From contig NZ_PYAS01000008.1 of NCBI RefSeq assembly GCF_003014695.1, positions 62,001-126,000 of the forward strand: a stretch of 64,000 nt of DNA. The letters are read 5' to 3'. The notes beneath the pieces were generated by a model, which was not told the origin of the DNA, searched no databases, and saw only the letters and a list, made by a program, of their open reading frames with translations. Numbering within the stretch: the first letter of the stretch is position 1; each line of letters begins with the position of its first letter. Source of the DNA: Dyadobacter jiangsuensis. Lineage in GTDB: Bacteria > Bacteroidota > Bacteroidia > Cytophagales > Spirosomataceae. Positions 3,226-62,940 of the stretch are shown here, one piece after another. Made by a program: the position numbers and the translations under genes.

Positions 3226-4422
3226 TTATTTTGATTTGGAGCTTTGGCTAAATTGGATCCGCACAAAATGCGGACGGTAAAGATTGGGCTGCTTCGGCAG
3301 CACTTCCAGGAACTTGAATGTATTGACGTTATAAGAAATGAGCAATTCGCCCGGGGCCGACAATGCGGGATGCGCTTTGGCATTGTAGGTAAACAGATCC
3401 GGGTCGCGGATATCCGCGGATGTTTTATACAACACAATTCTCGGCCCGAAAGGCCCGTAAGGCGTCGGTCCTACCTGCATGCAAATCTCCGGAAAAATGC
3501 TGCCAAGCTGATACACCAATGCATATTTACCCGGCGCCAACATACTCACACTTAACTCATTCGAAACCGAGTCGCTTAAAGCTGCGGCCTCACTTGCGTT
3601 CTGCGTCCACCCCCTTTTTCCACGAAACTCCCATTGATCGAACAACGTAAGCCGATCCGGCTTCACCCTCGCTGCAACCAGTTTTTTGGTGGGCCCTTTG
3701 GTACCATAAATGTAGACAAAGCCATCGGGCGAGGCCTCCCCGGCTGCCCGGCTGTTGTTATAAATGCCCGCACCAAACGAAATTGTTTCACCACCGGCCT
3801 GATAGTCATTAAACGGCAGCGCAAATTGCTCCTGACCCGTGTAAGGAAAATGGCTACCGGCGGGTATCCTGATCACCGAATTTCCGGTTTCCTTAAATGG
3901 GAATGCCGAATTATCGTGCGTATTAGTGATTTGGTAAGCAAAAATAAAAAGGTCTTTGCCCGCGTCGGGATTCACGAAGCCATCTCCCAGCCAGAAATAG
4001 GTATCCTTGTCGGGCTTGTCAGATTTTGGAATAAACACAGCCCGGTGCCCCTTCCCTTCGCCGGCAATCCTGAATGTAATTTTGCCCGTATCGGGTGATT
4101 TCCCCCTCAACAATGCCACCGAATTGTTTACCAGTGAGAACCCGGATTTCAGTGCGGCACCATCAATTTCCCCCAGCACTGTATCACTGAAAAGGAAAAG
4201 AATGCTATCCTCCTTCTGTGCGTCGCGGCCGGAAAACGGGATCGCAAATATGCCGTCGCCGCCCAGCCAGCCCGATTTTCTCAGGAACAGGTCCGACCAT
4301 TCCGGCGCGGGTGAAGCCGTGAACTCGTTCACATTCAACCCGTTCACACCGTTGCGTACCTGCCCGGACGCATACGCGAGGCAAGTCAGAATAATCCCTA
4401 AAGTCAGCGTGGTGTTTCTCAT
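3226..4422 (-). CDS. Secreted DUF4185/DUF5005-like protein
   Basis: 398 aa with a clear signal peptide (MRNTTLTLGIILTCLAYASGQ). The segment SGWLGGDGIFAIPFSG followed by DSILFLFSDTVLGE is typical of DUF4185/DUF5005 proteins, which are thought to adopt a five-bladed propeller like GH43-type enzymes. Later FGPRIVLYKT and DIRDPDLFTYNAKAHP fit blades of such a fold. It is the first gene of the three-gene minus-strand operon. Its enzymatic activity is unknown; position next to a mannosidase-like gene suggests glycan binding or hydrolysis. The start ATG at 4422 is divergent from the TonB-receptor gene across about 200 bp. Confidence 0.65.
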   Translation of the reverse strand: MRNTTLTLGIILTCLAYASGQVRNGVNGLNVNEFTASPAPEWSDLFLRKSGWLGGDGIFAIPFSGRDAQKEDSILFLFSDTVLGEIDGAALKSGFSLVNNSVALLRGKSPDTGKITFRIAGEGKGHRAVFIPKSDKPDKDTYFWLGDGFVNPDAGKDLFIFAYQITNTHDNSAFPFKETGNSVIRIPAGSHFPYTGQEQFALPFNDYQAGGETISFGAGIYNNSRAAGEASPDGFVYIYGTKGPTKKLVAARVKPDRLTLFDQWEFRGKRGWTQNASEAAALSDSVSNELSVSMLAPGKYALVYQLGSIFPEICMQVGPTPYGPFGPRIVLYKTSADIRDPDLFTYNAKAHPALSAPGELLISYNVNTFKFLEVLPKQPNLYRPHFVRIQFSQSSKSK

Positions 4423-9857: not shown

Positions 9858-12212
9858 ATGCTAAAAAACTATCTCAAAATCGCATTCAGGAACCTGCTCC
9901 GAAACAAGGCTTTTTCGGCGATCAATATCCTGGGGTTATCGGTGGGTATGGCGAGCGCCGTGCTGATCCTGTTTTGGATGTACAATGAAATCAGCTACGA
10001 CCGCTTCCATAAGAATAAGGATTACCTCTACGAAGCGTGGAACCGTGGAAAGTTCGATGGGAAACTGCAATGCTGGAATTCCACCCCGCAGGTTCTCGGC
10101 CCTGCTTTGAAAGCAGAATATCCCGAAGTTGCCGACATTTCACGCAATTACTCGCGTTGGTTTGTGACGCGCGTGGGCGACAAGAAAATTTCGAGTGAAG
10201 CCATCATTACCGATCCTGCTTTTCTGAGCATGTTCGACTTCCCGCTGCTGCGGGGAAACGCGGGGACTGCCCTCAACTCGGTCAGCTCGATGGTGGTTAC
10301 ACAGAAAATGGCCATTAAAATGTTCGGCACGGAGGATGTGCTGGGCAAAGTCATATCGATCGACAAGGACAACTTCACGATCACCGGTGTTATGCAGAAC
10401 CTCCCGCCGAACACCGCATTCAGGTTTGAGTACATTCTTCCGATCGAATACCTGAAAAGGATCGGCTCGGCCGATGACGGCTGGGTGTTCAATACCGTGA
10501 ACACCTACGTTCAGTTGAAACCTGGCACCAACCCGGAAGCGTTTGCCGGGAAGATCAGGGATATCACGATCCGCCACTCGAACAAAACCGAAGAACACGA
10601 AGTATTCCTTCACCCCATCAGCCAATGGCATTTGTATTCCAATTTCGAGAATGGCAAAGTCGTTGGCGGGCGCATCGCCATTGTGCGGTTATTTGGCATC
10701 ATTGCAGCGTTCATCCTGCTGATCGCCTGCATCAATTTCATGAACCTGAGCACCGCCAGGAGCGAAAAACGCGCCAAAGAAGTGGGTATCCGCAAAACAG
10801 CCGGAGCCCCCAAAGGCCTTTTGATTGGCCAGTTCATCGGCGAATCGATCCTCATCGCGATGATTGCCGGTACGATCGCCTTGCTGGCAGTTTACCTTAT
10901 ATTACCCGCATTCAATACGCTCATCGGCAAGGAATTGGAAGTGCCGGTTGCCAATCCCGCATTTTGGGCTGCCGCATTTGCCTTTATTCTCTTTACAGGT
11001 ATTGTCGCAGGAAGCTACCCCGCATTCTACCTCTCGTCGTTCAAGCCTATCAGCGTGCTCAAAGGAGCATTTAAAAGGACCCATTCGGCATTCAGTCCGC
11101 GGAAAGTACTGGTGGTTGTGCAGTTCAGCTTTGCGATCGTCCTCATCATTTCCACGCTCATCGTGGTACAGCAGATCCGCCACGCCCAGAACCGCGACGC
11201 AGGTTACGACCGCGGACAGGTGGTGTACCATTGGATTACCGGCGATTTGGGCAAACAATATCCCCAAATCAAACGCGAGCTGTTGAGTGCAGGCATTGCC
11301 ACATCGGTTACCAAAACCTCTTCCCCGCTAAGCAGCGTCTCTTCCGATACATGGGGCATCGAATGGCATGGCAAAAACATGGCCGAAAAAATTGATTTCG
11401 ATATTTTCACCGAAGATGAAGGGCTCGTTAAAACTGCCGGCCTGCAACTCGTCCAGGGCCGCGATATGGACCTTACCAAATTCCCTTCCGACTCTGCGGC
11501 TGCCCTCCTCAATGAAACGGCGGCTAAAATCATGGGCTTCAAAGATCCGATCGGGCAAACGATCAAAGACAACGGTGCTCAATATCAAATCGTTGGGGTG
11601 GTCAAGGACTTTGTGATCCGGTCGCCTTATGACCGCCCGAGCCCCTTGATCATCGAAGGGGCGCAAAGCTATTTCAATGTGATCCACATGAAGCTCACCG
11701 CCGATAAGCCGGCCGCTGACGTCATGCCTGCGGTAGAGGCCATTTTCCGCCGCTATAACCCCGAGTATCCCTTCGAATACCATTTCGTGGACGAGGATTA
11801 TGCATTAAAATTTGAAGATACCCGCCGGGTAGCTAAACTGACCGGGATTTTCGCGGGCCTGACGATCTTCATTTCCTGCCTCGGGCTATTTGGACTGGCC
11901 GCGTATATGGCCGAAAACCGCGTGAAGGAAATCGGCGTACGCAAGGTATTGGGAGCCAGCGTGATGAGCATTGCTGCATTGCTTTCCGGCGAATTCATGG
12001 CATTGGTGATTATCTCCATCGTCATCGCGGTGCCGGTTGCCTGGTATGTCATGGACCTCTGGCTGAATGATTTCGAATACCGGATCGGCATTCAATGGTG
12101 GATATTCGCCGTATCGGGCATTCTGGCGATTGCGGTATCGCTGGCGACTGTCAGCTACCAGGCAATCCGCGCAGCGCTGCTCAACCCGGTGAAAAGCCTT
12201 CGCAGCGAATAA
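9858..12212 (+). CDS. FtsX/MacB-type ABC transporter permease
   Basis: 784 aa. Begins MLKNYLKIAFRNLLRNKAFSAINILGLSVGMASAVLI, the signature of the large Bacteroidetes MacB-type permeases. It has two copies of a MacB periplasmic domain followed by FtsX transmembrane segments: TM1 about 20-42, a three-helix FtsX block about 285-430, a second periplasmic domain, and a last block of helices about 670-775. Both FtsX blocks contain the expected KEVGIRKTAGAP and KEIGVRKVLGAS motifs, evidence of internal duplication within the family architecture. No ATPase gene is adjacent. Such proteins work as mechanotransmission or efflux permeases with a separately encoded LolD/MacB-like ATPase. Substrate unknown. 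Confidence 0.88.
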   Translation: MLKNYLKIAFRNLLRNKAFSAINILGLSVGMASAVLILFWMYNEISYDRFHKNKDYLYEAWNRGKFDGKLQCWNSTPQVLGPALKAEYPEVADISRNYSRWFVTRVGDKKISSEAIITDPAFLSMFDFPLLRGNAGTALNSVSSMVVTQKMAIKMFGTEDVLGKVISIDKDNFTITGVMQNLPPNTAFRFEYILPIEYLKRIGSADDGWVFNTVNTYVQLKPGTNPEAFAGKIRDITIRHSNKTEEHEVFLHPISQWHLYSNFENGKVVGGRIAIVRLFGIIAAFILLIACINFMNLSTARSEKRAKEVGIRKTAGAPKGLLIGQFIGESILIAMIAGTIALLAVYLILPAFNTLIGKELEVPVANPAFWAAAFAFILFTGIVAGSYPAFYLSSFKPISVLKGAFKRTHSAFSPRKVLVVVQFSFAIVLIISTLIVVQQIRHAQNRDAGYDRGQVVYHWITGDLGKQYPQIKRELLSAGIATSVTKTSSPLSSVSSDTWGIEWHGKNMAEKIDFDIFTEDEGLVKTAGLQLVQGRDMDLTKFPSDSAAALLNETAAKIMGFKDPIGQTIKDNGAQYQIVGVVKDFVIRSPYDRPSPLIIEGAQSYFNVIHMKLTADKPAADVMPAVEAIFRRYNPEYPFEYHFVDEDYALKFEDTRRVAKLTGIFAGLTIFISCLGLFGLAAYMAENRVKEIGVRKVLGASVMSIAALLSGEFMALVIISIVIAVPVAWYVMDLWLNDFEYRIGIQWWIFAVSGILAIAVSLATVSYQAIRAALLNPVKSLRSE

Positions 12213-40961: not shown

Positions 40962-41268
40962 AGAAATAGCAGTTTTAATGCATGACACAGCTCTTCATGC
41001 CATGGTTGTCATCGCTAAAAGCCACTATCCTATCACCCTTACCTATTCATGATTGCCCGGATCTGTTGCAGATGATTAATGTCATACCCTGCATAATACA
41101 ATGCAATGTCACAGATACTTCCCTTGCCCAGTTCCGCCTGATGCCAAAATAGTCCATTGGTGGCTTCCGGCAGACGTAACAATTGCAGGTTTGCTTGGCG
41201 CAATATGACGAATAATAAATCCGCTTTTGTTGGAACAAATACGAGCAATAGTTATTTTTGATACCAAA
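40962..41268. other. Gap upstream of imuA with an unassigned short frame
   Basis: No recognised gene. On the minus strand 41039-41248 a 69-codon frame ends with GKGSICDIALYYAGYDINHLQQIRAIMNR, which looks protein-like but matches no family I know; it may be a gene remnant or chance. The rest is non-coding. Confidence 0.25.
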
Positions 41269-41293
41269 TTATTGATATCAAAAATATCAATAA
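41269..41293. promoter_or_regulatory. imuA: Palindromic operator of imuA (putative SOS box)
   Basis: Perfect 10-bp inverted repeat TTATTGATAT (41269-41278) / ATATCAATAA (41284-41293) with a 5-nt spacer, 17 bp before the imuA ATG. The core GATA-N7-TATC (GATATCAAAAATATC, 41274-41288) recurs upstream of imuB. A partial TTTTGATAC lies just upstream. No LexA-like gene is in the window, so the cognate regulator is not known. Confidence 0.65.
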
Positions 41294-41310
41294 GTAACTC
41301 AAACGTTCCT

Positions 41311-42051
41311 ATGGCACTCCCCCTCCTGAAAAACGGCATGTTTAGCAGGTTGCAAGAAGATATTCTTGCATTGCAGGGCTTTCGTGCGCCTGTTGGGGCC
41401 AGGAAGATCGATTTCGGATTAGGGGCTATGAATACCTCGTTTCCCAATCATACATTTCCTACGGGAGCTGTACATGAGTTTATCAGTAACGACCCTGAAA
41501 GCGCTGCGGCGACGACCGGCTTTATCGCAGCGCTGCTGGGGAAACTGATGGGGGAATATGGTATATGCCTGTGGATCGGCATACGGCCTATCGTGTTCGC
41601 GGCGTCATTGAAAGCATTTGGCGTGGAACCGCACCGCGTAATTTTCATTGACCTCAGTAAAGAGAAGGATGTGATATGGGCCGTGGAAGAAGCATTGAAA
41701 TGCGAATCGCTGGCGGCCGTGGTCGGGGAGCTTCGTGAAATCACATTTACGGAATCCCGGCGCCTGCAACTGGCTGTGGAGCAAAGCCGGGTTACCGGTT
41801 TCCTGCATCGCTGCAATCCGCGCACAGTGAATACCCTTGCGTGTGTATCACGCTGGCAAATCACCCCGATAGCCAGCCAACTGGAAGAAGGCATGCCCGG
41901 CGTGGGGCATCCGTGCTGGCGTGTGCAGCTGCAAAAGATCCGGAATGGAGAGCCGGGAGAATGGGAAATGCAATGGGCTAGCGGGCAATTCGAATACCTC
42001 CAAAAAGAGGTTGCGGAAACGCCGCCGGTTTATTTGCGACAAACCGGTTGA
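41311..42051 (+). CDS. imuA: ImuA-like RecA-fold protein of the ImuA-ImuB-DnaE2 mutasome
   Basis: 246 aa from the ATG at 41311, directly after the operator; an upstream in-frame ATG would put the palindrome inside the gene. PTGAVHEFISNDPESAAATTGFIAALLGKLM has the shape of ImuA proteins, RecA-related but with a degenerate Walker A; FIDLSKEKDVIWAVEEALKCESLAAVVGELREI corresponds to the rest of the ATPase core. ImuA helps ImuB and DnaE2 replicate across DNA damage. Unusually, imuB and dnaE2 are 5.3 kb downstream instead of next to it. Confidence 0.8.
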   Translation: MALPLLKNGMFSRLQEDILALQGFRAPVGARKIDFGLGAMNTSFPNHTFPTGAVHEFISNDPESAAATTGFIAALLGKLMGEYGICLWIGIRPIVFAASLKAFGVEPHRVIFIDLSKEKDVIWAVEEALKCESLAAVVGELREITFTESRRLQLAVEQSRVTGFLHRCNPRTVNTLACVSRWQITPIASQLEEGMPGVGHPCWRVQLQKIRNGEPGEWEMQWASGQFEYLQKEVAETPPVYLRQTG

Positions 42052-42139
42052 TCGAATACGCATTAAGTTTGTTTCAATTATTTAATTTATATATATAATT
42101 TTATTTTATATTTATAAACTAAAAATTGACTGAACAGCC

Positions 42140-42670
42140 ATGACGCGTTACTTACTGCTTCCATTCGCCTTCGTTTTTCATGCAGCATTGCTGACTTGCG
42201 AAAAATCGGCTCCCAACGTCGCCACAAACAAAGCAACCGACACAACCGGCACTATCATCGAAGAAATCGGTACACAGGCGTTCGAAGGCGAGTTTTACGA
42301 CAATATGCCCAACGCCTTTGACGGAGAATTAATGATGGTCCCCGAAGACTTTGTGCCTATTGATGTGGATACCGAGCCTCAATTTCCCGGCGGTCAAGTC
42401 GCTCTTCAAAAATACATTAACAAATACCTCGAAATACCACGCGCAGTCCGGCGCCTGAAAGTGACCGGTAAGGTATACACGTCGTTTATCATCTCAGAAA
42501 CAGGCGTAATCGAAGAAGCCTCGATCGTTAAAAGTCTGCAATACAACTGCGATCAAGCTGCATTGGACCTGATCAATCACATGCCCAAATGGAAACCGGC
42601 AGTCAAAGACGGCATACCGGTGAGTGTCAGGCATTATCTTGAAATACCTTTTGATTACCGTGACCGCTAG
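42140..42670 (+). CDS. Lipoprotein with TonB C-terminal domain
   Basis: 176 aa. The N-terminus (YLLLPFAFVFHAALLTCEK) looks like a lipoprotein signal with Cys20. The last 90 residues are a TonB C-terminal domain: EPQFPGGQVALQKYINKYLEIP, GKVYTSFIISETGVIEEASIV, and AALDLINHMPKWKPAVKDGIPV. TonB normally has an inner-membrane helix and a Pro-rich spacer; here the spacer is absent, so it may be a stand-alone TonB-like module with a peptidoglycan or receptor-binding role. It lies between imuA and imuB, in an AT-rich setting. Confidence 0.75.
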   Translation: MTRYLLLPFAFVFHAALLTCEKSAPNVATNKATDTTGTIIEEIGTQAFEGEFYDNMPNAFDGELMMVPEDFVPIDVDTEPQFPGGQVALQKYINKYLEIPRAVRRLKVTGKVYTSFIISETGVIEEASIVKSLQYNCDQAALDLINHMPKWKPAVKDGIPVSVRHYLEIPFDYRDR

Positions 42671-42674
42671 GCCG

Positions 42675-43547
42675 TTATCTTCCTATTTGTCGTTTAAAAA
42701 ACTTCCACGACTCCTCGAACATATCGAAATCCGTCACGAACTCGTGCTTACCGTTGATTACTTTCAGCAAAGTGACTTCGGGCTTGCCTTTCTTTTGATA
42801 GGTGTATTTCTCCACCGTGATATTGTTGGAAGTATCGCCATCCGGCATGATGGATTTCACCGGCTCACCGGAATACCCGTCCAGCTTTGCCCAGTATCGG
42901 AATGATTGGTCCGTAGACCGTACCGTTCCCAACGTAACACCCGGCGTTGTTACCTCACCTCCATTGTAAGGATTGGTCTGATCCGCCGTGCCGTTGGTGA
43001 TCATCACCGGAAGCGGCACATTCATGGAAGCACAATCCATATTTTCATCGGTAGGAAGGTTGGCTACGATCGCCGAAACCGCCCGGATTTTCCCAGGCAT
43101 CGTGAGTGCGAGCTTATAGGCCATATGTCCGCCGCCCGAAAAGCCCGTTGCAAAAACCTGCTTCTTATTAATTTTGTATTTTGAAGCAAAAAGGTCGATC
43201 AACGCGGTGAAAAATGCCTCCTCGTTCAGGTTTTGCGTATTCGCTATTGCTGTGGAAGCCTTGCGGCATTCGTTCCAGTACTTTTTATATCCGCCCGGAT
43301 AAACCACCAACACGTTCTCCGACTCCGAAAGCGATTCCAGTTTCGCGCCCCTGCGCGCAAAGCCCAATGGCTCTCCACCGGACCCGTGCATGACAAACAC
43401 CATACTGGCTCCCTGCTTCACTTTCACAGAAGGATTATAGGCATACACCCGGTAATGTCCATCGATTAATAATGAATCCAGCACGTGCTGGGCATTGGCG
43501 GAAAACGCAACGAGGATCAGGAGTGTGAAAAGTAGCTGCTTGAACAT
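42675..43547 (-). CDS. Secreted PHB depolymerase-like esterase
   Basis: 290 aa from the ATG at 43547 with signal peptide (QLLFTLLILVAFSANAQ). SMVFVMHGSGGEPLGFARR, nucleophile Ser in VFATGFSGGGHMAYKLAL, and NGKHEF with the His are typical of the LpqC/PHB-depolymerase (CE1-like) family. It may hydrolyse feruloyl or acetyl esters of polysaccharides. Confidence 0.82.
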   Translation of the reverse strand: MFKQLLFTLLILVAFSANAQHVLDSLLIDGHYRVYAYNPSVKVKQGASMVFVMHGSGGEPLGFARRGAKLESLSESENVLVVYPGGYKKYWNECRKASTAIANTQNLNEEAFFTALIDLFASKYKINKKQVFATGFSGGGHMAYKLALTMPGKIRAVSAIVANLPTDENMDCASMNVPLPVMITNGTADQTNPYNGGEVTTPGVTLGTVRSTDQSFRYWAKLDGYSGEPVKSIMPDGDTSNNITVEKYTYQKKGKPEVTLLKVINGKHEFVTDFDMFEESWKFFKRQIGR

Positions 43548-43614
43548 GGACGATGAAATTGAATTGTGCTCATGCAAGTTACATAGCGGGCAGGAAATTT
43601 TGGACCAAAATCAA

Positions 43615-44007
43615 TCAAATCCTGCTTTCAAACATCCATACATGCCCAAAAGGATCCATTACATCTCCCTGCCGGTAGCCATAGTCGTAATCCTGCACCG
43701 GCGAGGTAACTTTTGCTCCTGCGGCTACTGCCCTTGCCATGTAGGCATCCACATCGTCTACAAATAACCCGATCGTCACCGTCGATCCCTGATGACGTAA
43801 CGGGCTGAATGAAGCGGGGTTTCGGGTTTCCTCATGCAAATGGAAAATTGCGCCGTTAATCGATAGCTCCGAAACATGAATGGTGCCGTCGTCGTTGCTG
43901 AAACGGCGAAGCTCAACCGCTCCAAGGCCATTAATGTAAAAATCGACATCCCTCACACCATTCGGGATGTAAAGCTGAGGCGCAAAAACGGGTCTAACTG
44001 TTTCCAT
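43615..44007 (-). CDS. VOC-superfamily glyoxalase/bleomycin-resistance-like protein
   Basis: 130 aa from the ATG at 44007 (METVRPVFAPQLYIPNGVRDVDFYI); an ATG 15 bp upstream is equally possible. Two beta-alpha-beta-beta-beta halves: GAVELRRFSNDDGTIHVSELSINGAIFHLHEE, then VTIGLFVDDVDAYMARAVAAGAKVTSPVQDYDYGYRQGDVMDPFGHVWMFE. The second His/Glu of the vicinal-oxygen chelate is visible. Function unknown. Confidence 0.85.
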   Translation of the reverse strand: METVRPVFAPQLYIPNGVRDVDFYINGLGAVELRRFSNDDGTIHVSELSINGAIFHLHEETRNPASFSPLRHQGSTVTIGLFVDDVDAYMARAVAAGAKVTSPVQDYDYGYRQGDVMDPFGHVWMFESRI

Positions 44008-44076
44008 AATAGCGTTTTGCATTAATACCGTTATGATAAGCGCTTTCCCTTTACTCCCTACTCCTTTCTCCCTTTA

Positions 44077-44679
44077 CTACCTTTTCAACATTCGTTCGAT
44101 AGCCTTCAGAACCGCCTCCCGGTTCTTCGCGGCTTTAATAAATTGCGGAAGTTTCTCGACCATCGTCGTAATTCGCATCGTTTGCCTTTCCCGCAACCTT
44201 GCGGTTACGTAATTACGGATTTCGAGCAAATGCTCCCTGTTACTGGCCCAAAGCGTATCGCTTTTCACATTTTCCTGAAACCAAAGCGGCAGACCAAATA
44301 CCGGGTCCGTAAGCCTTTCTGCGCTATATTTCAATCGATAAGGCACATTATTGGGCTTATACACTTCCGGCACATGACAATGCGGACAAGAATATTTCAG
44401 CTCGGCGACTTTCTCCCTGTTATTCGGAATACTCACCTCGATCGACTCCCCGCAATGGCCGCAAGCGCGACTGATAGTTGCCGTGTATCGCAAACGTTTG
44501 TCGGCAGTTTCCGAATAGTTGCAATGATGGCACACCAGCTTGTCGTCGCCAATCCCCACAAGGTCTTTCTTAATCACCCGCGCTGCTTGGACACATTTCG
44601 GGCATTCCACCCAAAATTCCTTTGCATACGCGTAACGCGTCGTAGGCGGGCCTACGTAACGGTTAGCTTCACTTTCCAT
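44077..44679 (-). CDS. Cytoplasmic zinc-ribbon protein of unknown function
   Basis: 200 aa from the ATG at 44679. Four CxxC knuckles (CPKC, CHHC, CGHC, CPHC) can form two zinc ribbons in the first half; FGLPLWFQENVKSDTLWASNREHLLEIRNYVTARLRER and a Lys/Arg-rich C-terminus follow. Proteins of this architecture are conserved but uncharacterised in Bacteroidetes. It starts 4 bp after the stop of a secreted-protein gene with which it may form an operon. Confidence 0.65.
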   Translation of the reverse strand: MESEANRYVGPPTTRYAYAKEFWVECPKCVQAARVIKKDLVGIGDDKLVCHHCNYSETADKRLRYTATISRACGHCGESIEVSIPNNREKVAELKYSCPHCHVPEVYKPNNVPYRLKYSAERLTDPVFGLPLWFQENVKSDTLWASNREHLLEIRNYVTARLRERQTMRITTMVEKLPQFIKAAKNREAVLKAIERMLKR

Positions 44680-44683
44680 GTCG

Positions 44684-45295
44684 TCACTTTTTAATAGTAA
44701 TATCGGGAACAGATGCCTTGGCAACGTCTGCGATCAATGCCTTACGTTCAACTTTAAGCCGGGTCAGAAACGGCTGAATGTCTTTGCCGTAAGCGCGGTT
44801 ACTAAGTGCATACAGCAATATCCCCTTTTGCCCCAACTTCGCCGTAATTGCTTTGAAACGATATACATCGTGTTCGTAAATGCTTTTTGCGTCGTCGGCC
44901 GCCGTCTGCCCGAGCAGGCAATCGATGATCTTTTCGCCGGTAGCTGCATTGCCGATCACCTCGTAATTAACATCGAGCGTCTTTTTCAACTGATCCAATT
45001 CACGGAGCTTGGTCCGTACCGCATCATCCACGCTCGCCGTTGCCACTACAAAATCAATCGTAATCATTGATTTGTAATTCGGAAAATCATCGCCGGCCAC
45101 CAGGTACTCCTGCTTGTAAAGCGAAACATCCGGATGCGACGACCATTTCAACGGGTAGCTTTTCTTTTGGAATAGAATAGGTCCGGGAATGCCCATGTAA
45201 TTGACCGCCGGCTTATTGCTCTGGCCAAAACTTTGAACCGAGGCCAACAGCAGAGAAGCTGTGGCCAGGGTAATCGATTGAATGATCACTTTCAT
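44684..45295 (-). CDS. Secreted protein of unknown function
   Basis: 203 aa with signal peptide (SITLATASLLLASVQSFGQ). Mature sequence begins KPAVNYMGIPGPILFQKKSYPLKWSSHP; it has no domain I recognise. Contains one Cys (IIDCLLG). Likely cotranscribed with the zinc-ribbon gene 4 bp downstream. Confidence 0.5.
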   Translation of the reverse strand: MKVIIQSITLATASLLLASVQSFGQSNKPAVNYMGIPGPILFQKKSYPLKWSSHPDVSLYKQEYLVAGDDFPNYKSMITIDFVVATASVDDAVRTKLRELDQLKKTLDVNYEVIGNAATGEKIIDCLLGQTAADDAKSIYEHDVYRFKAITAKLGQKGILLYALSNRAYGKDIQPFLTRLKVERKALIADVAKASVPDITIKK

Positions 45296-45462
45296 GCGTG
45301 TATGGATGATGTGCGAAACAAGATTGCAGTGTCCGGCTCATTGTTGAACCGGACCGCAAACTTATCATGTCAATCAACCAAACGCAATATACACAAGGGC
45401 ACAACCTCGCCACAAAACCATTGATTCACAATAAATTGAGTTAACGGCACATCCAAAAGACA

Positions 45463-45972
45463 TTACCCCTGCACTTTGGCAAGATAAGTATCCAACTGTC
45501 CCCAGGTACCTTCGTATCCCTGGTTCATGCTGGCATTCAAATCCGCGAAAGTTTTTTCCTGTTCAGGTGTCGCATTGACCGGCTCGGCGTAAAGGGTCAG
45601 TGTGGTAACGCCATTGGCCTCACTCAGAGTAATGCGGTTATGCACTTCCAATGGGAAATCGATCGGGAATGGCGACGAAGTAATATTACCCTCCGGATCG
45701 GTGAAAGAGCTCAGGAATTCGATAGAATCCGGCTGTTGAATTTTTTGATAGCGAAAGAGTGCCCACATCAGCAATCCGTTGTTATCGAGTTTGTAATGGG
45801 TCCTCCCTCCTTCACGAAAGTCAAAACTCAGCACAGTGAGTGTAGATCCCGCCGGCCCCCACCACGCTGCAAACGCCTCCCTGGAAGCGAAAGCATTGTA
45901 CACTAATGGCTGTGGCGCTTTGAATTGGCGTACGATTTTTAATTCCGCTTTGGGTGTTATCTGGTTTTCCAT
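45463..45972 (-). CDS. SRPBCC/AHSA1 protein of ArsR pair 2
   Basis: 169 aa. AELKIVRQFKAPQPLVYNAFASREAFAAWWGPAGSTLTVLSFDFREGG is the AHSA1 opening and VHNRITLSEANGVTTLTLYAEPVNATPEQEKTFADLN the middle part. It ends MNQGYEGTWGQLDTYLAKVQG, typical of SRPBCC proteins. Separated by 1 nt from the upstream ArsR gene. Paralogue of the protein at 25.4 kb, but more divergent than the regulators. Confidence 0.85.
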   Translation of the reverse strand: MENQITPKAELKIVRQFKAPQPLVYNAFASREAFAAWWGPAGSTLTVLSFDFREGGRTHYKLDNNGLLMWALFRYQKIQQPDSIEFLSSFTDPEGNITSSPFPIDFPLEVHNRITLSEANGVTTLTLYAEPVNATPEQEKTFADLNASMNQGYEGTWGQLDTYLAKVQG

Positions 45973-45973
45973 G

Positions 45974-46315
45974 TTATTGATCGGATTGATTGTTGTTTTG
46001 AATTCGGTTCAGATAGTGATCGAGTGAATCGAACTGCGTGTTCCAGAACTGCCGGTACTGGTCGATCCACGTAGATACTTCTTTCAAAGCATCCAGCTTC
46101 GCCTCGCAATACCGCTCACGCCCTTCCTGCCTCACCATCACCATCCCACATTCCATTAAAATCTTAATGTGCTGGGAAACAGCAGGCCTGCTGATCGAAA
46201 AGTTCTCAGCAATAGCATTCAGGTTCATGGATTGATAGGCTATGAGGTTAATAATCTGCCTGCGGGTAGGATCTGCAATCGCCTGAAAAACATCTCTTCT
46301 TGCTTCAACGGACAT
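45974..46315 (-). CDS. ArsR-family winged-helix repressor (copy 2)
   Basis: 113 aa. RRDVFQAIADPTRRQIINLIA, then LNAIAENFSISRPAVSQHIKILMECGMV, closely parallels copy 1; the recognition helix differs (SRPAVSQHIK vs TRQAISLHVK), in step with different operator bases. The start ATG is 4 bp from a double palindrome that it probably recognises. No Cys metal site. Confidence 0.88.
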   Translation of the reverse strand: MSVEARRDVFQAIADPTRRQIINLIAYQSMNLNAIAENFSISRPAVSQHIKILMECGMVMVRQEGRERYCEAKLDALKEVSTWIDQYRQFWNTQFDSLDHYLNRIQNNNQSDQ

Positions 46316-46319
46316 ACAT

Positions 46320-46363
46320 GTAAGTATTTGCTTACATAATAGTATATGTAAGTATTCACTTAC
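46320..46363 (-). promoter_or_regulatory. Double palindromic operator of ArsR copy 2
   Basis: GTAAGTATTTGCTTAC (46320-46335) and GTAAGTATTCACTTAC (46348-46363), 28 bp apart. Compared with the copy 1 operator, the arm base C/G next to the outermost position has changed to T/A (GCAAG to GTAAG), while the arrangement upstream of the regulator start is the same. Confidence 0.75.
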
Positions 46364-46416
46364 GCAAATTTCCGAAGCAGAATTTTTTCAAAAATTTGTC
46401 AATCATGAAAATCAGG

Positions 46417-47253
46417 CTATTTGAGGCGCCTCCTCGACCCTTTATCGAGTTTTTTGATATTTTCCGCAGGCGGAAGGTTCTCAGGCATGGTACCACCCAG
46501 CTCCTGAATCGTTTGACGCACCTTGGCGCCCACTTCGAAATGCGTTTGATTGGCTTTATCCTTCCCAACTATATTCTCTCTCCTCAATTTATCGTCGGTC
46601 TGCGTAGCTCGAAAGACATTTGCAGCTAATTCGGAACTACCCATATGATCAGGCAGATTCTGGCTGTTTTTCAAACCCTTTCTCTCACGGATTGCTTTGG
46701 CATCAAGCCCGCCATACAGCCCCATGTAGCCATGATTTTGGAAAATCGCATAGTCGATCGGCTCAACAACGCCCGCCGTCTTAGCGGCTTCTGCTAAAAG
46801 TAGGTTATTCCGCGTCAGTTCGCCTCGCAGGAAAACCCGCTTTTCGTCTTCGGTATTCAACCGGTTGTACTCCTCCATTTGCCGGATTTCCTGCAAACGG
46901 GTTTGTACAGCGAAGTAAGTCTGCCCCAGGGCAACTACTTCTTTTGCGGGATCCGCATTCTGGACAATCAGGTAGCAGGCGTAGCGGGAGAGCTTGATAT
47001 CATCGACACTTCGTTTTCCTCCTTTTCCCAATTCGATCATTCCGAGCATATCCTCGAAATGATCCTTGACGTTCTGTCCACTATTCGCACATGCCTCCTT
47101 GGCACGTTCAACCGCTGGTTTAAAATGCCGATACTCTGTGTATTCCAGCACTTTTGCCAAATCTCTGGCACTCCAAAACTCGTTACCGTTGTCGTCGGAT
47201 TTTCTGATTTGCTCGAAGAGCGAGGGGCCTTGATGTGAAGTCATACTATTCAA
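46417..47253 (-). CDS. dinD: DinD-like DNA damage-inducible protein
   Basis: 278 aa. FEQIRKSDDNGNEFWSARDLAKVLEYTEYRHFKPAVERAKEACANSG followed by DIKLSRYACYLIVQNADPAKEVVALGQTYFAVQTRLQEI is the BRO-N-like and DinD-typical sequence; NHGYMGLYGGLDAKAIRERKGLK and HMGSSELAANVFRATQTDDKLR complete it. E. coli DinD is SOS-induced and inhibits RecA-mediated strand exchange. It is divergent from imuB; the operator at 47341 lies 88 bp upstream of its start, so both could be controlled together. Confidence 0.85.
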   Translation of the reverse strand: MNSMTSHQGPSLFEQIRKSDDNGNEFWSARDLAKVLEYTEYRHFKPAVERAKEACANSGQNVKDHFEDMLGMIELGKGGKRSVDDIKLSRYACYLIVQNADPAKEVVALGQTYFAVQTRLQEIRQMEEYNRLNTEDEKRVFLRGELTRNNLLLAEAAKTAGVVEPIDYAIFQNHGYMGLYGGLDAKAIRERKGLKNSQNLPDHMGSSELAANVFRATQTDDKLRRENIVGKDKANQTHFEVGAKVRQTIQELGGTMPENLPPAENIKKLDKGSRRRLK

Positions 47254-47314
47254 ATTTTAAGTGTGTAAAAAGCTTTCAACAAAGCAAAAAAATTGCTGGC
47301 AATTTTCAAAGTGT

Positions 47315-47355
47315 TTTGATATTATTGTAATCTATTTTAAGATATTAAAAGTATC
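47315..47355. promoter_or_regulatory. imuB: Promoter/operator of imuB with GATA-N7-TATC element
   Basis: GATATTAAAAGTATC (47341-47355) has the same GATA-N7-TATC form as the imuA operator. A degenerate copy GATATTATTGTAATC lies at 47318-47332. TTTG at 47315-47318 is a possible -33 box and TAAGATAT at 47338-47345, 19 nt later, a weak -7 box overlapped by the operator. The imuB ATG follows 36 nt after. Confidence 0.6.
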
Positions 47356-60432: not shown

Positions 60433-62940
60433 ATGGATTCGAGAAGAGACTTTCTTAAAAAAGCGGCCCTGCTCGCGGGCACGGGCGCAATGGCGAACAC
60501 ACTCCCGCCGGTTATACAAAAAGCCCTGGCCATCGATCCCGCACCGGGCAGTACGTTTTACGATGCCGAGCACATTGTGTTCCTGATGCAGGAAAACCGC
60601 TCGTTTGACCACCAGCTGGGTATGCTGCAAGGTGTGCGGGGTTTTAACGATCCGCGGGCCATCGACCTGGCCGATAAAAACAAGGTCTGGTTCCAAACCA
60701 ACAAAGCGGGCGAAACTTACGGCCCTTTCCGGCTCAATGTGAAAGATACCAAAGTGGCATGGATGGGCTCCATTCCCCACGGCTGGACCGACCAGACCGA
60801 CGCAATGAACAACGGCAAATACGACCGCTGGCTCGACGTGAAAGCGCCCCGCAACAAACAATATGCGCATATCCCGCTCACCATGGGCTATTGCGACCGT
60901 TCGGACTTCCCGTTCTACTACTCCCTGGCCGATGCATTCACCGTTTGCGACCACAATTTCTGTTCGAGCATCACCGGTACACACCCGAACCGCTATTACT
61001 GGATGACGGGCACCGTGCGCGAGAAAAACGAACCCAACGGCCTCGCGCATTTGTGGAATATCAGCAATTACGAATACCCCGAACTCGAATGGAAAACCTA
61101 CCCCGAACGCCTCGAAGAGCACGGCATCAACTGGAAAGTGTACCAAAACGAGCTCACAATGGGTTACGGCCTCAAAGGGGAGGAAAGCGCGTGGCTCAGC
61201 AACTTTGGCACCAACGTGTTGGAGTATTTCAAAGCTTACAATGTGCGGTTCCATGAAGGCGGGATCGCCAATCTTGAAAGCAAACGGCAGACGATAGTCC
61301 AAACCATTGCAGACCTCGAAAAAGAGGCGGCTAACGATTCCCGCGTGGCCACAAAACTTGCGGCAGCTAAAAGGTTATTGAAAAACATCGAAACAGCCCA
61401 GACCAAATTTAACAAAGACACTTACGCCAGCCTTTCAGACAAGGATAAAAAACTGAATGACAAGGCATTCAGCACAAACATCAAAGATCCCCATTTCCAT
61501 GAGCTCACTTCGATGCAGTACTCCGACAATGGTACCGAAAGGACATTGCAAGTGCCCAAGGGAGACGTGTTCCACCAGTTCCGGGAAGATGTGAAGAATG
61601 GCACACTGCCCACCGTTTCATGGCTGATGCCGCCTGCGCATTTCTCCGATCACCCGGGTGAGCCGTGGTTCGGGCCGTGGTACGTGAGCGAGGCGATGGA
61701 GATTTTGCTACAAAATCCGGAGGTTTGGAAAAAGACTATTTTCATCGTGACCTATGATGAAAACGACGGCTATTTCGACCATTTGCCACCCTTTACGGTC
61801 CCAAATCCTTATAAAGAAAACACCGGCAAAGTATCAGCGAGTATCGATCCGAAAATGGATTTCGCGCTGGCTGACCAGCAAACCAACCCATCGGCCAATC
61901 CGGCCAGCATCCGCGAAGGCTCTATCGGCCTCGGTTACCGCGTGCCGATGATCATCGCCTCACCCTGGTCTAGAGGTGGTTATGTCAATTCCGAAGTATT
62001 CGACCACACCTCGTCACTCCAATTCCTGGAAAACTTCCTGGAAAAGAAGTTTAATAAAAAGGTCCACGAAGAGAATATCACCCAATGGCGGCGCACCATC
62101 TGCGGCGACCTCACGTCGGTGTTCCGGCCTTACAACGGGGAAAAAATCGAAAAACCGGTTTTTCTGGAACAAAAGCAGTTCATCGAAAGCATTCACCAGG
62201 CGCAGTTCAAACAGGCTCCCGAAAATTTCAAAAAGCTTGGCACCACCGAATTGGCTGAATTGAATAAGGATACGCGAAAGTCGGCACTATTTCCGGTTCA
62301 GGAAAAAGGCGTGCGCCCTGCCTGCGCGCTGCCGTACGAACCGTTCGTGAATGCGCAGCTTAGTAAGGGCGGAAATGCATTGCAGCTGTCGTTCAAGGCG
62401 GGCAATCAGCTTTTCGGTACCAGGGCCAGCGGTATTCCGTATCGTGTGTATGCGATGAATCCATACCGCAAAGAGGCGCTCCGCTCCTGGGATTACAGCG
62501 TCGCTGCCGGCGACAAACTCACCGACGACTGGCAACTGGCCGACTTTGAAAACAATGCCTATCACCTGCGCGTTTACGGACCGAATGGTTTCTACCGCGA
62601 ATTCACCGGCAATGCAGCCAACCCGAAGCTGAAAGTGAGCTGCGAGTACGAGTTGAAATTCTCAAAACCGACTGGTAATGTGGTGGTAACAATCGAAAAC
62701 CTGGATTCCAAATCACATGAAGTATCCATCGGGGATAATAGCTATAAAGCAGCTGTTAAGAACAAAACTTTCGCCGTCGGCGGCAAGGCTTCGCTCGTGC
62801 TGGACTTGGGCAAATCATTTCAATGGTACGATTTCAGCGTCAAAGTGAAAGGTTATGACGATTACGAAGAACGTTTCGCTGGACACGTCGAAACCGGCGC
62901 CGTTACGAAAACCGACCCGCTGATGGGTGGCGTTGTTTAA
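60433..62940 (+). CDS. Tat-exported phosphocholine-specific phospholipase C
   Basis: 835 aa. Tat signal SRRDFLKKAALLAG (3-16). The phosphoesterase core begins HIVFLMQENRSFDHQLG (Glu54, Asn55), continues with CDHNFCSSITGTHPNRYYWMTG and VTYDENDGYFDHLPP, and ends in two DUF756-like C-terminal domains (VKVSCEYELKFSKPTGNVVVTIENLD). This is the layout of PlcN/PlcH-type enzymes (acid-phosphatase superfamily) that hydrolyse phosphatidylcholine or sphingomyelin; in Bacteroidetes such enzymes probably serve phosphate or choline scavenging. Confidence 0.92.
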   Translation: MDSRRDFLKKAALLAGTGAMANTLPPVIQKALAIDPAPGSTFYDAEHIVFLMQENRSFDHQLGMLQGVRGFNDPRAIDLADKNKVWFQTNKAGETYGPFRLNVKDTKVAWMGSIPHGWTDQTDAMNNGKYDRWLDVKAPRNKQYAHIPLTMGYCDRSDFPFYYSLADAFTVCDHNFCSSITGTHPNRYYWMTGTVREKNEPNGLAHLWNISNYEYPELEWKTYPERLEEHGINWKVYQNELTMGYGLKGEESAWLSNFGTNVLEYFKAYNVRFHEGGIANLESKRQTIVQTIADLEKEAANDSRVATKLAAAKRLLKNIETAQTKFNKDTYASLSDKDKKLNDKAFSTNIKDPHFHELTSMQYSDNGTERTLQVPKGDVFHQFREDVKNGTLPTVSWLMPPAHFSDHPGEPWFGPWYVSEAMEILLQNPEVWKKTIFIVTYDENDGYFDHLPPFTVPNPYKENTGKVSASIDPKMDFALADQQTNPSANPASIREGSIGLGYRVPMIIASPWSRGGYVNSEVFDHTSSLQFLENFLEKKFNKKVHEENITQWRRTICGDLTSVFRPYNGEKIEKPVFLEQKQFIESIHQAQFKQAPENFKKLGTTELAELNKDTRKSALFPVQEKGVRPACALPYEPFVNAQLSKGGNALQLSFKAGNQLFGTRASGIPYRVYAMNPYRKEALRSWDYSVAAGDKLTDDWQLADFENNAYHLRVYGPNGFYREFTGNAANPKLKVSCEYELKFSKPTGNVVVTIENLDSKSHEVSIGDNSYKAAVKNKTFAVGGKASLVLDLGKSFQWYDFSVKVKGYDDYEERFAGHVETGAVTKTDPLMGGVV

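Follow-up and report, generated by a model that had tools for sequence, protein, structure and literature searches.

The mutasome genes imuA and imuB of Dyadobacter jiangsuensis are each preceded by a GATA-N7-TATC box in the 64,000-nucleotide stretch of contig NZ_PYAS01000008.1 analysed here (forward-strand positions 62,001 to 126,000 of assembly GCF_003014695.1; hereafter the window). We propose, at a probability of roughly 0.85, that each box is the start-proximal member of a tandem operator of the Dyadobacter SOS repressor, predicted from sequence to be a 273-residue XRE/S24 protein of the non-canonical LexA kind. This proposal builds on several observations: the operator sequence, the 23-bp pairing and the position of its boxes, their conservation upstream of damage genes and of the gene encoding the repressor, and the retention of cleavage and catalytic residues in the protein. 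The shared SOS-like operator put forward in an initial annotation of this DNA is strongly supported: the enrichment check before repair genes that it had suggested was run, and the pair is enriched there in related genomes.

Pairing of the boxes at 23 bp

Both boxes were found where the initial annotation had placed them, GATATCAAAAATATC standing 22 nt ahead of the imuA ATG and GATATTAAAAGTATC 36 nt ahead of the imuB ATG (coordinates in Table 1). For a LexA motif of the Escherichia coli kind, CTGT-N8-ACAG, the best match has two mismatches out of eight in either promoter. GATA-N7-TATC occurs three times in the window (the third copy at 12101) when 0.54 occurrences are expected, and two of 100 shuffles give three. 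A perfect single box appeared within 150 nt before the gene in 10 of 5000 dinucleotide shuffles for imuA and in 12 of 5000 for imuB. The 8.27-Mb genome carries 184 copies of the single box as compared to 66 of the reversed pattern, the control in our genome scans; with so many copies it is not specific genome-wide and was therefore rejected as a mark of the regulon. The imuA box sits at the centre of a 25-bp palindrome whose 10-bp arms match perfectly. An extended single palindrome, searched with up to three mismatches, was discarded as too loose (910 matches against 185 for the reversed pattern), and two places where its matches stood 23 bp apart led to the paired operator.

At both imuA and imuB the reported box is the start-proximal half of a pair, its weaker partner standing exactly 23 bp further upstream. 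The box of the initial annotation thus stands, its description as a single unit does not, and the pair at imuB probably also serves dinD. We defined a pair as two GATA-N7-TATC boxes at an offset of 23 bp and counted mismatches over the 16 fixed letters. In 5000 dinucleotide-preserving shuffles of each 150-nt region upstream of imuA, of imuB and of the repressor gene, the observed pair was never matched. In the genome of the window (G000; other G labels denote compared genomes and L labels extracted loci), six pairs have at most two mismatches, five of them before genes and one within a coding sequence, which was taken as chance; with three mismatches allowed, 37 are found versus 11 for the reversed pattern.

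In order to examine the spacing, 51 promoters were picked for the gene they precede, irrespective of the pattern (8 imuA, 9 imuB and 34 repressor promoters, the latter drawn from 47 orthologs as the 30 best-scoring and four hand-chosen ones, three of these four being without the pair). At no more than two mismatches the offset-23 pair is present in 43 of them (31 of 34 repressor, 9 of 9 imuB and 3 of 8 imuA promoters), and every other offset from 11 to 60 occurs in at most two promoters. Generic dyad scoring of 30 ortholog promoters brings several offsets nearly to a tie (23 best in 21 and 18 best in 18, ties counted), and no offset peak was seen by the same scoring in 24 promoters of other repressors. 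Across 48 Dyadobacter genomes, 112 pairs with at most one mismatch were counted against 6 for the reversed pattern, and they are present in 47 of the genomes. The excess is confined to the genus, since 174 other genomes of the family give 13 against 10. Chance does not account for at least two of the 13: a pair in G154 is a cassette repressor's operator, and a pair in G051, from another genus, immediately precedes an S24 repressor match.

The candidate repressor and its predicted regulon

Our candidate regulator is encoded outside the window by an XRE/S24 open reading frame (ORF) of 273 residues (G000:C7:105784-106602), which starts about 5 nt past the end of the contig C7 pair. Its N-terminus matches HTH_3 (PF01381; E 5.3e-12, 46 bits for a cut-off of 23), and the winged helix-turn-helix domain of canonical LexA (PF01726) is not among its Pfam matches at E up to 1. 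A search of solved structures gave weak matches only (18 at E up to 1, the best 0.0013), including the P22 C2 and 434 repressors. Orthologs with at least 78% identity occur in 47 of the 48 Dyadobacter genomes. In an alignment of 31 chosen rows, the Ala-Gly bond, the Ser and the Lys are kept in all 10 orthologs, and one of the 12 paralogs (L251) has Met-Gly instead of Ala-Gly. The arrangement of this gene behind its own pair has the predicted layout of a self-regulated SOS repressor.

Sanchez-Osuna et al. (2021, PMC8565304) described the non-canonical LexA family of Bacteroidetes with two operators, CTAA-N5-TTAG and GGA-N5-TCC, with an Ala-Gly bond, Ser and Lys named for self-cleavage, and with a GIY-YIG exonuclease under both motifs; some promoters had at least two sites. 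In that study divergence prevented the assignment of Capnocytophaga and Cytophagaceae homologs, and its main text mentions neither Dyadobacter nor Spirosoma. A full-text search of the available literature that combined Dyadobacter with LexA and the SOS response returned no paper; a second one, from 2021 on, for LexA of Bacteroidetes together with its binding motif and SOS regulon returned that study only. The Dyadobacter system resembles the published family in its CI-like helix-turn-helix followed by a weakly matching S24 domain, its Ala-Gly bond with Ser and Lys, its predicted self-operator, its predicted control of polymerase cassettes, the presence of the operator at recA in some species and a GIY-YIG exonuclease; it differs in its operator, a 23-bp-spaced GATA-N7-TATC pair, a fixed spacing not encountered in the available text of PMC8565304. 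The unrecognised repressor imagined in the initial annotation is therefore probably not of an unrecognised kind, as the best candidate carries the features of this family.

In the genome of the window, the genes adjoining the pair are the repressor gene, imuA, imuB together with dinD, a 2'-5' RNA ligase-like gene (Pfam E 1.2e-20) and a small unknown gene. Seventy-five of the 112 genus pairs were listed with their neighbours (58 read as loci, 14 put to the repressor by coordinates and three known from the genome of the window). The commonest neighbour is the XRE/S24 repressor gene (26), followed by a loose family of about 180 residues (13), imuB (11, eight with dinD), recA (5), the small unknown gene (5), a family of about 140 residues (5), the 2'-5' RNA ligase-like gene (3), FAN1 (2; a Pfam match in L179, assigned by eye in L145) and an AlkB-like oxygenase (1), with four other or chance cases. 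Among the 47 genomes in which recA was matched, 12 have a pair at this gene; 11 of these come from 46 tested promoters, and G014 is the twelfth. dinD is controlled by LexA in E. coli; in Dyadobacter it diverges from imuB with the pair in between, the two genes being 138-151 nt apart in seven of nine loci, and the pair may hence serve both directions.

Two of the protein families beside the pair are of unknown function and may act in the damage response. The family of about 180 residues lies downstream of the pair in 13 loci (L144, L147, L151, L153, L157, L165, L175, L178, L180, L190, L193, L194 and L199); it had no Pfam match at cut-off in L144 and L151 or in L178, a protein more loosely like these two, and it is loose in that L165, L178 and L199 join at 26-47% identity only via L151. 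The family of about 140 residues is downstream of the pair in five loci (L150, L185, L187, L191 and L200), and the one member run had no Pfam match. In L266 (2076-3973), the only such locus read on, a gene of this family is followed by an exonuclease-GIY-YIG gene.

A mechanism may be outlined on these grounds. Two repressor dimers would bind the neighbouring boxes, at or next to the promoter, and would thus block imuA, imuB-dnaE2, dinD and the repressor gene itself; upon DNA damage, RecA filaments would provoke cleavage at the Ala-Gly bond, the cleaved repressor would leave and the error-prone mutasome would be made. The -7 element consensus is TAnnTTTG, and elements resembling it overlap or abut the first box of imuA and of the repressor gene; none was found before imuB (138 nt searched), recA or the 2'-5' RNA ligase-like gene. 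Promoter blocking is thus plausible for some targets only.

Several observations weigh against this proposal. The S24 match of the repressor (PF00717) is weak, at 15.7 bits below the cut-off of 23.3, a threshold that the paralog L260 passes with 26.9 bits. When three mismatches are tolerated other offsets rise, offset 32 reaching 25 of the 51 promoters versus 47 at offset 23. The pair is absent from three of the 34 repressor promoters, and the imuA promoters, of which only 3 of 8 qualify at two mismatches, reach 7 of 8 at three. One genome (G008) has a pair and no close repressor ortholog; its assembly may be incomplete, because a recA match is also missing there. Finally recA, before which the initial annotation had suggested looking for the motif, is without the pair in the genome of the window, where it was not retained as a regulon member, and likewise in 35 of the 47 genus genomes with a recA match.

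Another regulator might bind the boxes. A gene for a MerR/B12-domain protein diverges from the repressor gene, and the two have a common promoter region in the loci where both are seen; a second S24 protein, encoded on contig C6 (L016), is the sole PF00717 match of its genome at E 0.001. We consider either to be an unlikely regulator. L016 has no pair in the 150 nt upstream of its gene (five mismatches at best) and was rejected; the cassette repressors described below have similarly placed palindromes, no MerR/B12 match being found in their loci; and the pair's neighbours are mostly damage-response or unknown genes, most often the XRE/S24 gene. As a separate observation, the L016 protein (L016:1369-2136), also of the XRE/S24 kind, clearly matches PF00717; most listed Dyadobacter genomes have relatives of it, similar in size and 32-38% identical, and the L016 promoter carries AAATATT-N4-AATATTT and no operator pair.

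Still less probable is that the XRE/S24 protein binds the boxes and answers a signal other than RecA or DNA damage. The exclusion of recA from the regulon in the genome of the window would fit this, as would the fact that all 15 paralogs read adjoin polymerase genes of their own; against it, the repressor retains the residues for RecA-provoked self-cleavage, the pair adjoins dinD, FAN1 and AlkB-like genes, and genes of published relatives were assayed after mitomycin C, with one reported induced in the available text of PMC8565304. A chance likeness within AT-rich promoters, which the abundance of single boxes might suggest, has a negligible probability given the absence of matches among the shuffles, the peak at offset 23 and the count of 112 versus 6 in the genus.

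Probable operator change and cassette repressors

The proposed SOS repressor would use an operator that differs from that of relatives at the same gene. We compared 56 imuA/imuB loci and that of the window, 43 of 48 loci being evaluable outside Dyadobacter and 8 of 9 within it. Outside the genus imuA and imuB are adjacent, their starts about 715-812 nt apart, and an exact CTAA-N5-TTAG is found in 29 of the 43 imuA promoters (0.28 expected from shuffles) and a pair at up to three mismatches in none. In Dyadobacter the two genes are 3.9-7.3 kb apart, none of the eight imuA promoters has an exact CTAA-N5-TTAG and seven have the pair at up to three mismatches. With the pair at imuA and at imuB, both halves of the split cassette thus carry the genus operator. 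Before imuA, imuB and the repressor gene of the window's genome, the best matches to CTAA-N5-TTAG have 3, 3 and 2 mismatches out of 8, and those to GGA-N5-TCC 1, 2 and 1 out of 6. Judged by its predicted operator, the candidate Dyadobacter repressor fits neither group. In Terrimonas, Lacibacter, Ferruginibacter and Niastella (L288-L291), the closest relative of the repressor is 34-38% identical and has CTAA-N5-TTAG in its own promoter. In L272-L283, from other families and one further genus (g2) of the same family, the closest S24 relative lies near a second Y-family polymerase-like gene in 10 of 12 loci, that gene having 22-25% identity to ImuB in those 10; in none of the 12 was an exact CTAA-N5-TTAG found in the 150 nt before this S24 relative.

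The GATA-N7-TATC pair is hence most likely the SOS operator of the genus, with a lettering unlike the published ones. A group left unassigned in PMC8565304 would thereby gain a candidate operator, together with a candidate regulator and regulon. Radical change of SOS operators between lineages is an old question, on which a set of paralogous repressors may bear. Besides or instead of the ortholog, 27 of the 48 Dyadobacter genomes encode paralogs at E 1e-60 or better, and relatives of these at the same threshold occur in five genomes of other genera. All 15 paralog loci read, out of 44 matches, adjoin error-prone polymerase genes, 12 being by imuA (11 also by imuB) and three by a dnaE-like gene; L247 has a dnaE-like gene plus a Y-family polymerase (Pfam IMS 2.3e-46). 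In their promoters, palindromes with different arms (TTTGACAC, TTTGTTGC, TTTGATAC and others) occupy roughly the corresponding position. Generic dyad scoring puts a good second site (score of at least 11) 23 bp further along in 9 of the 15, against a shuffle mean of 0.16, and the offset that most often comes out best is 23 (6 of 15).

These cassettes have known counterparts. In Weeksellaceae, too, paralogous repressors with a diverged operator neighbour an error-prone polymerase gene, and the TTAC-AAATT-GTAA palindrome of E. anophelis is described there as a single site (PMC8565304); as far as that text goes, Dyadobacter differs in its arms, in a layout that recurs with varied arms in several cassettes, and in that one relative would govern a regulon. 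One cassette (L298; NZ_CP099631.1:25805-40602) lies on a plasmid of Dyadobacter chenhuakuii that was typed as non-mobilizable. Its XRE/S24 repressor gene faces imuA, which is accompanied by genes for a Y-family polymerase and an error-prone polymerase; thpR, exodeoxyribonuclease III and a gene for an SOS response-associated peptidase lie nearby. Rhizobial plasmids similarly carry imuABC cassettes (Remigi et al. 2014, PMC4151985), a likeness drawn from cassette location and not from control, the Dyadobacter cassette having its own divergent XRE/S24 repressor. A plasmid search with one cassette repressor gave six records, five below 35% identity, among them a Runella record without imu genes nearby.

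Neighbouring operator sites of lambda CI are about 23-24 bp apart. The Dyadobacter system shares with it a CI-like repressor and a 23-bp operator spacing and differs in its predicted chromosomal damage regulon, with no phage genes seen adjoining in the loci read.

A tree of 54 of 80 repressor proteins (20 of 30 orthologs, four duplicates and two partial rows being left out) gathers the global Dyadobacter repressors in one clade (100/99) and these with the cassette repressors in one group (100/100). Dyadobacter cassette repressors mix with those of other genera at the starred branches, which suggests transfer between genera. No single cassette repressor emerges as nearest to the global one from this tree, which carries a long-branch warning and does not settle the branching at the base of the joint group; a descent of the global repressor from a cassette repressor would be read from linkage. 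Tentatively, and at somewhat short of even odds, the global SOS repressor of Dyadobacter may be a domesticated cassette repressor that left its cassette, replaced the CTAA-N5-TTAG system and recruited imuA, imuB-dnaE2, dinD, recA in one species group and other repair genes. Transferable mutasome islands, in which a repressor faces imuA-imuB-dnaE2, would then carry private operators of the same layout in other letters. If true, domestication would make visible one route along which the letters of SOS operators come to change. The paralogous repressors, with one layout and different arm letters beside private mutasome cassettes, offer natural pairs for the study of operator switching.

Further features of the window and of its contig

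Table 1. Annotated features of the window (positions are those of the window).
Feature	Position	Strand	Evidence and remarks
imuA operator, upstream box GTTATTTTTGATACC	41251..41265	+	pair match G000:C8:103251-103288; 2 of 16 mismatches, both in this box
TAnnTTTG-like -7 element TATTTTTG	41253..41260	+	overlaps the imuA upstream box; -58 from imuA ATG; putative function
imuA operator, downstream box	41269..41293, core 41274-41288	+	sequence and pattern matches; perfect 25-bp palindrome
imuA, 246 aa	41311..42051	+	NCBIfam NF033429 ImuA, E 2.9e-17, below cut-off; aligns with named ImuB-linked ImuA genes; no Pfam match
dinD, DNA damage-inducible protein D	46417..47253	-	NCBIfam NF008573, E 6.4e-120, above cut-off; Pfam Bro-N; an ATG at 47244
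imuB/dinD operator, upstream box GATATTATTGTAATC	47318..47332	+	G000:C8:109318-109355; 1 of 16 mismatches, in this box
imuB/dinD operator, downstream box GATATTAAAAGTATC	47341..47355	+	all 9 Dyadobacter imuB promoters keep the pair at up to 2 mismatches
imuB, Y-family polymerase-like, 503 aa	47392..48903	+	Pfam IMS, E 1.2e-14; 86-91% identity to L018-L022; up to 90-91% identity to named Dyadobacter loci
dnaE2, error-prone DNA polymerase, 1076 aa	48940..52170	+	NCBIfam NF004225, 1386 bits, cut-off 939; starts 36 nt past imuB

The region between imuA and imuB (42052-47253) holds several genes, including, as named by eye, a TonB-C-like gene, an esterase-like gene and an ArsR-like regulator. Elsewhere on contig C8, two pattern matches are near-identical (L102:991-1836, at G000:C8:3306, and G000:C8:318037); the one at 3306 falls within an ORF that resembles by eye a mobilisation protein, which suggests a repeated mobile element there.

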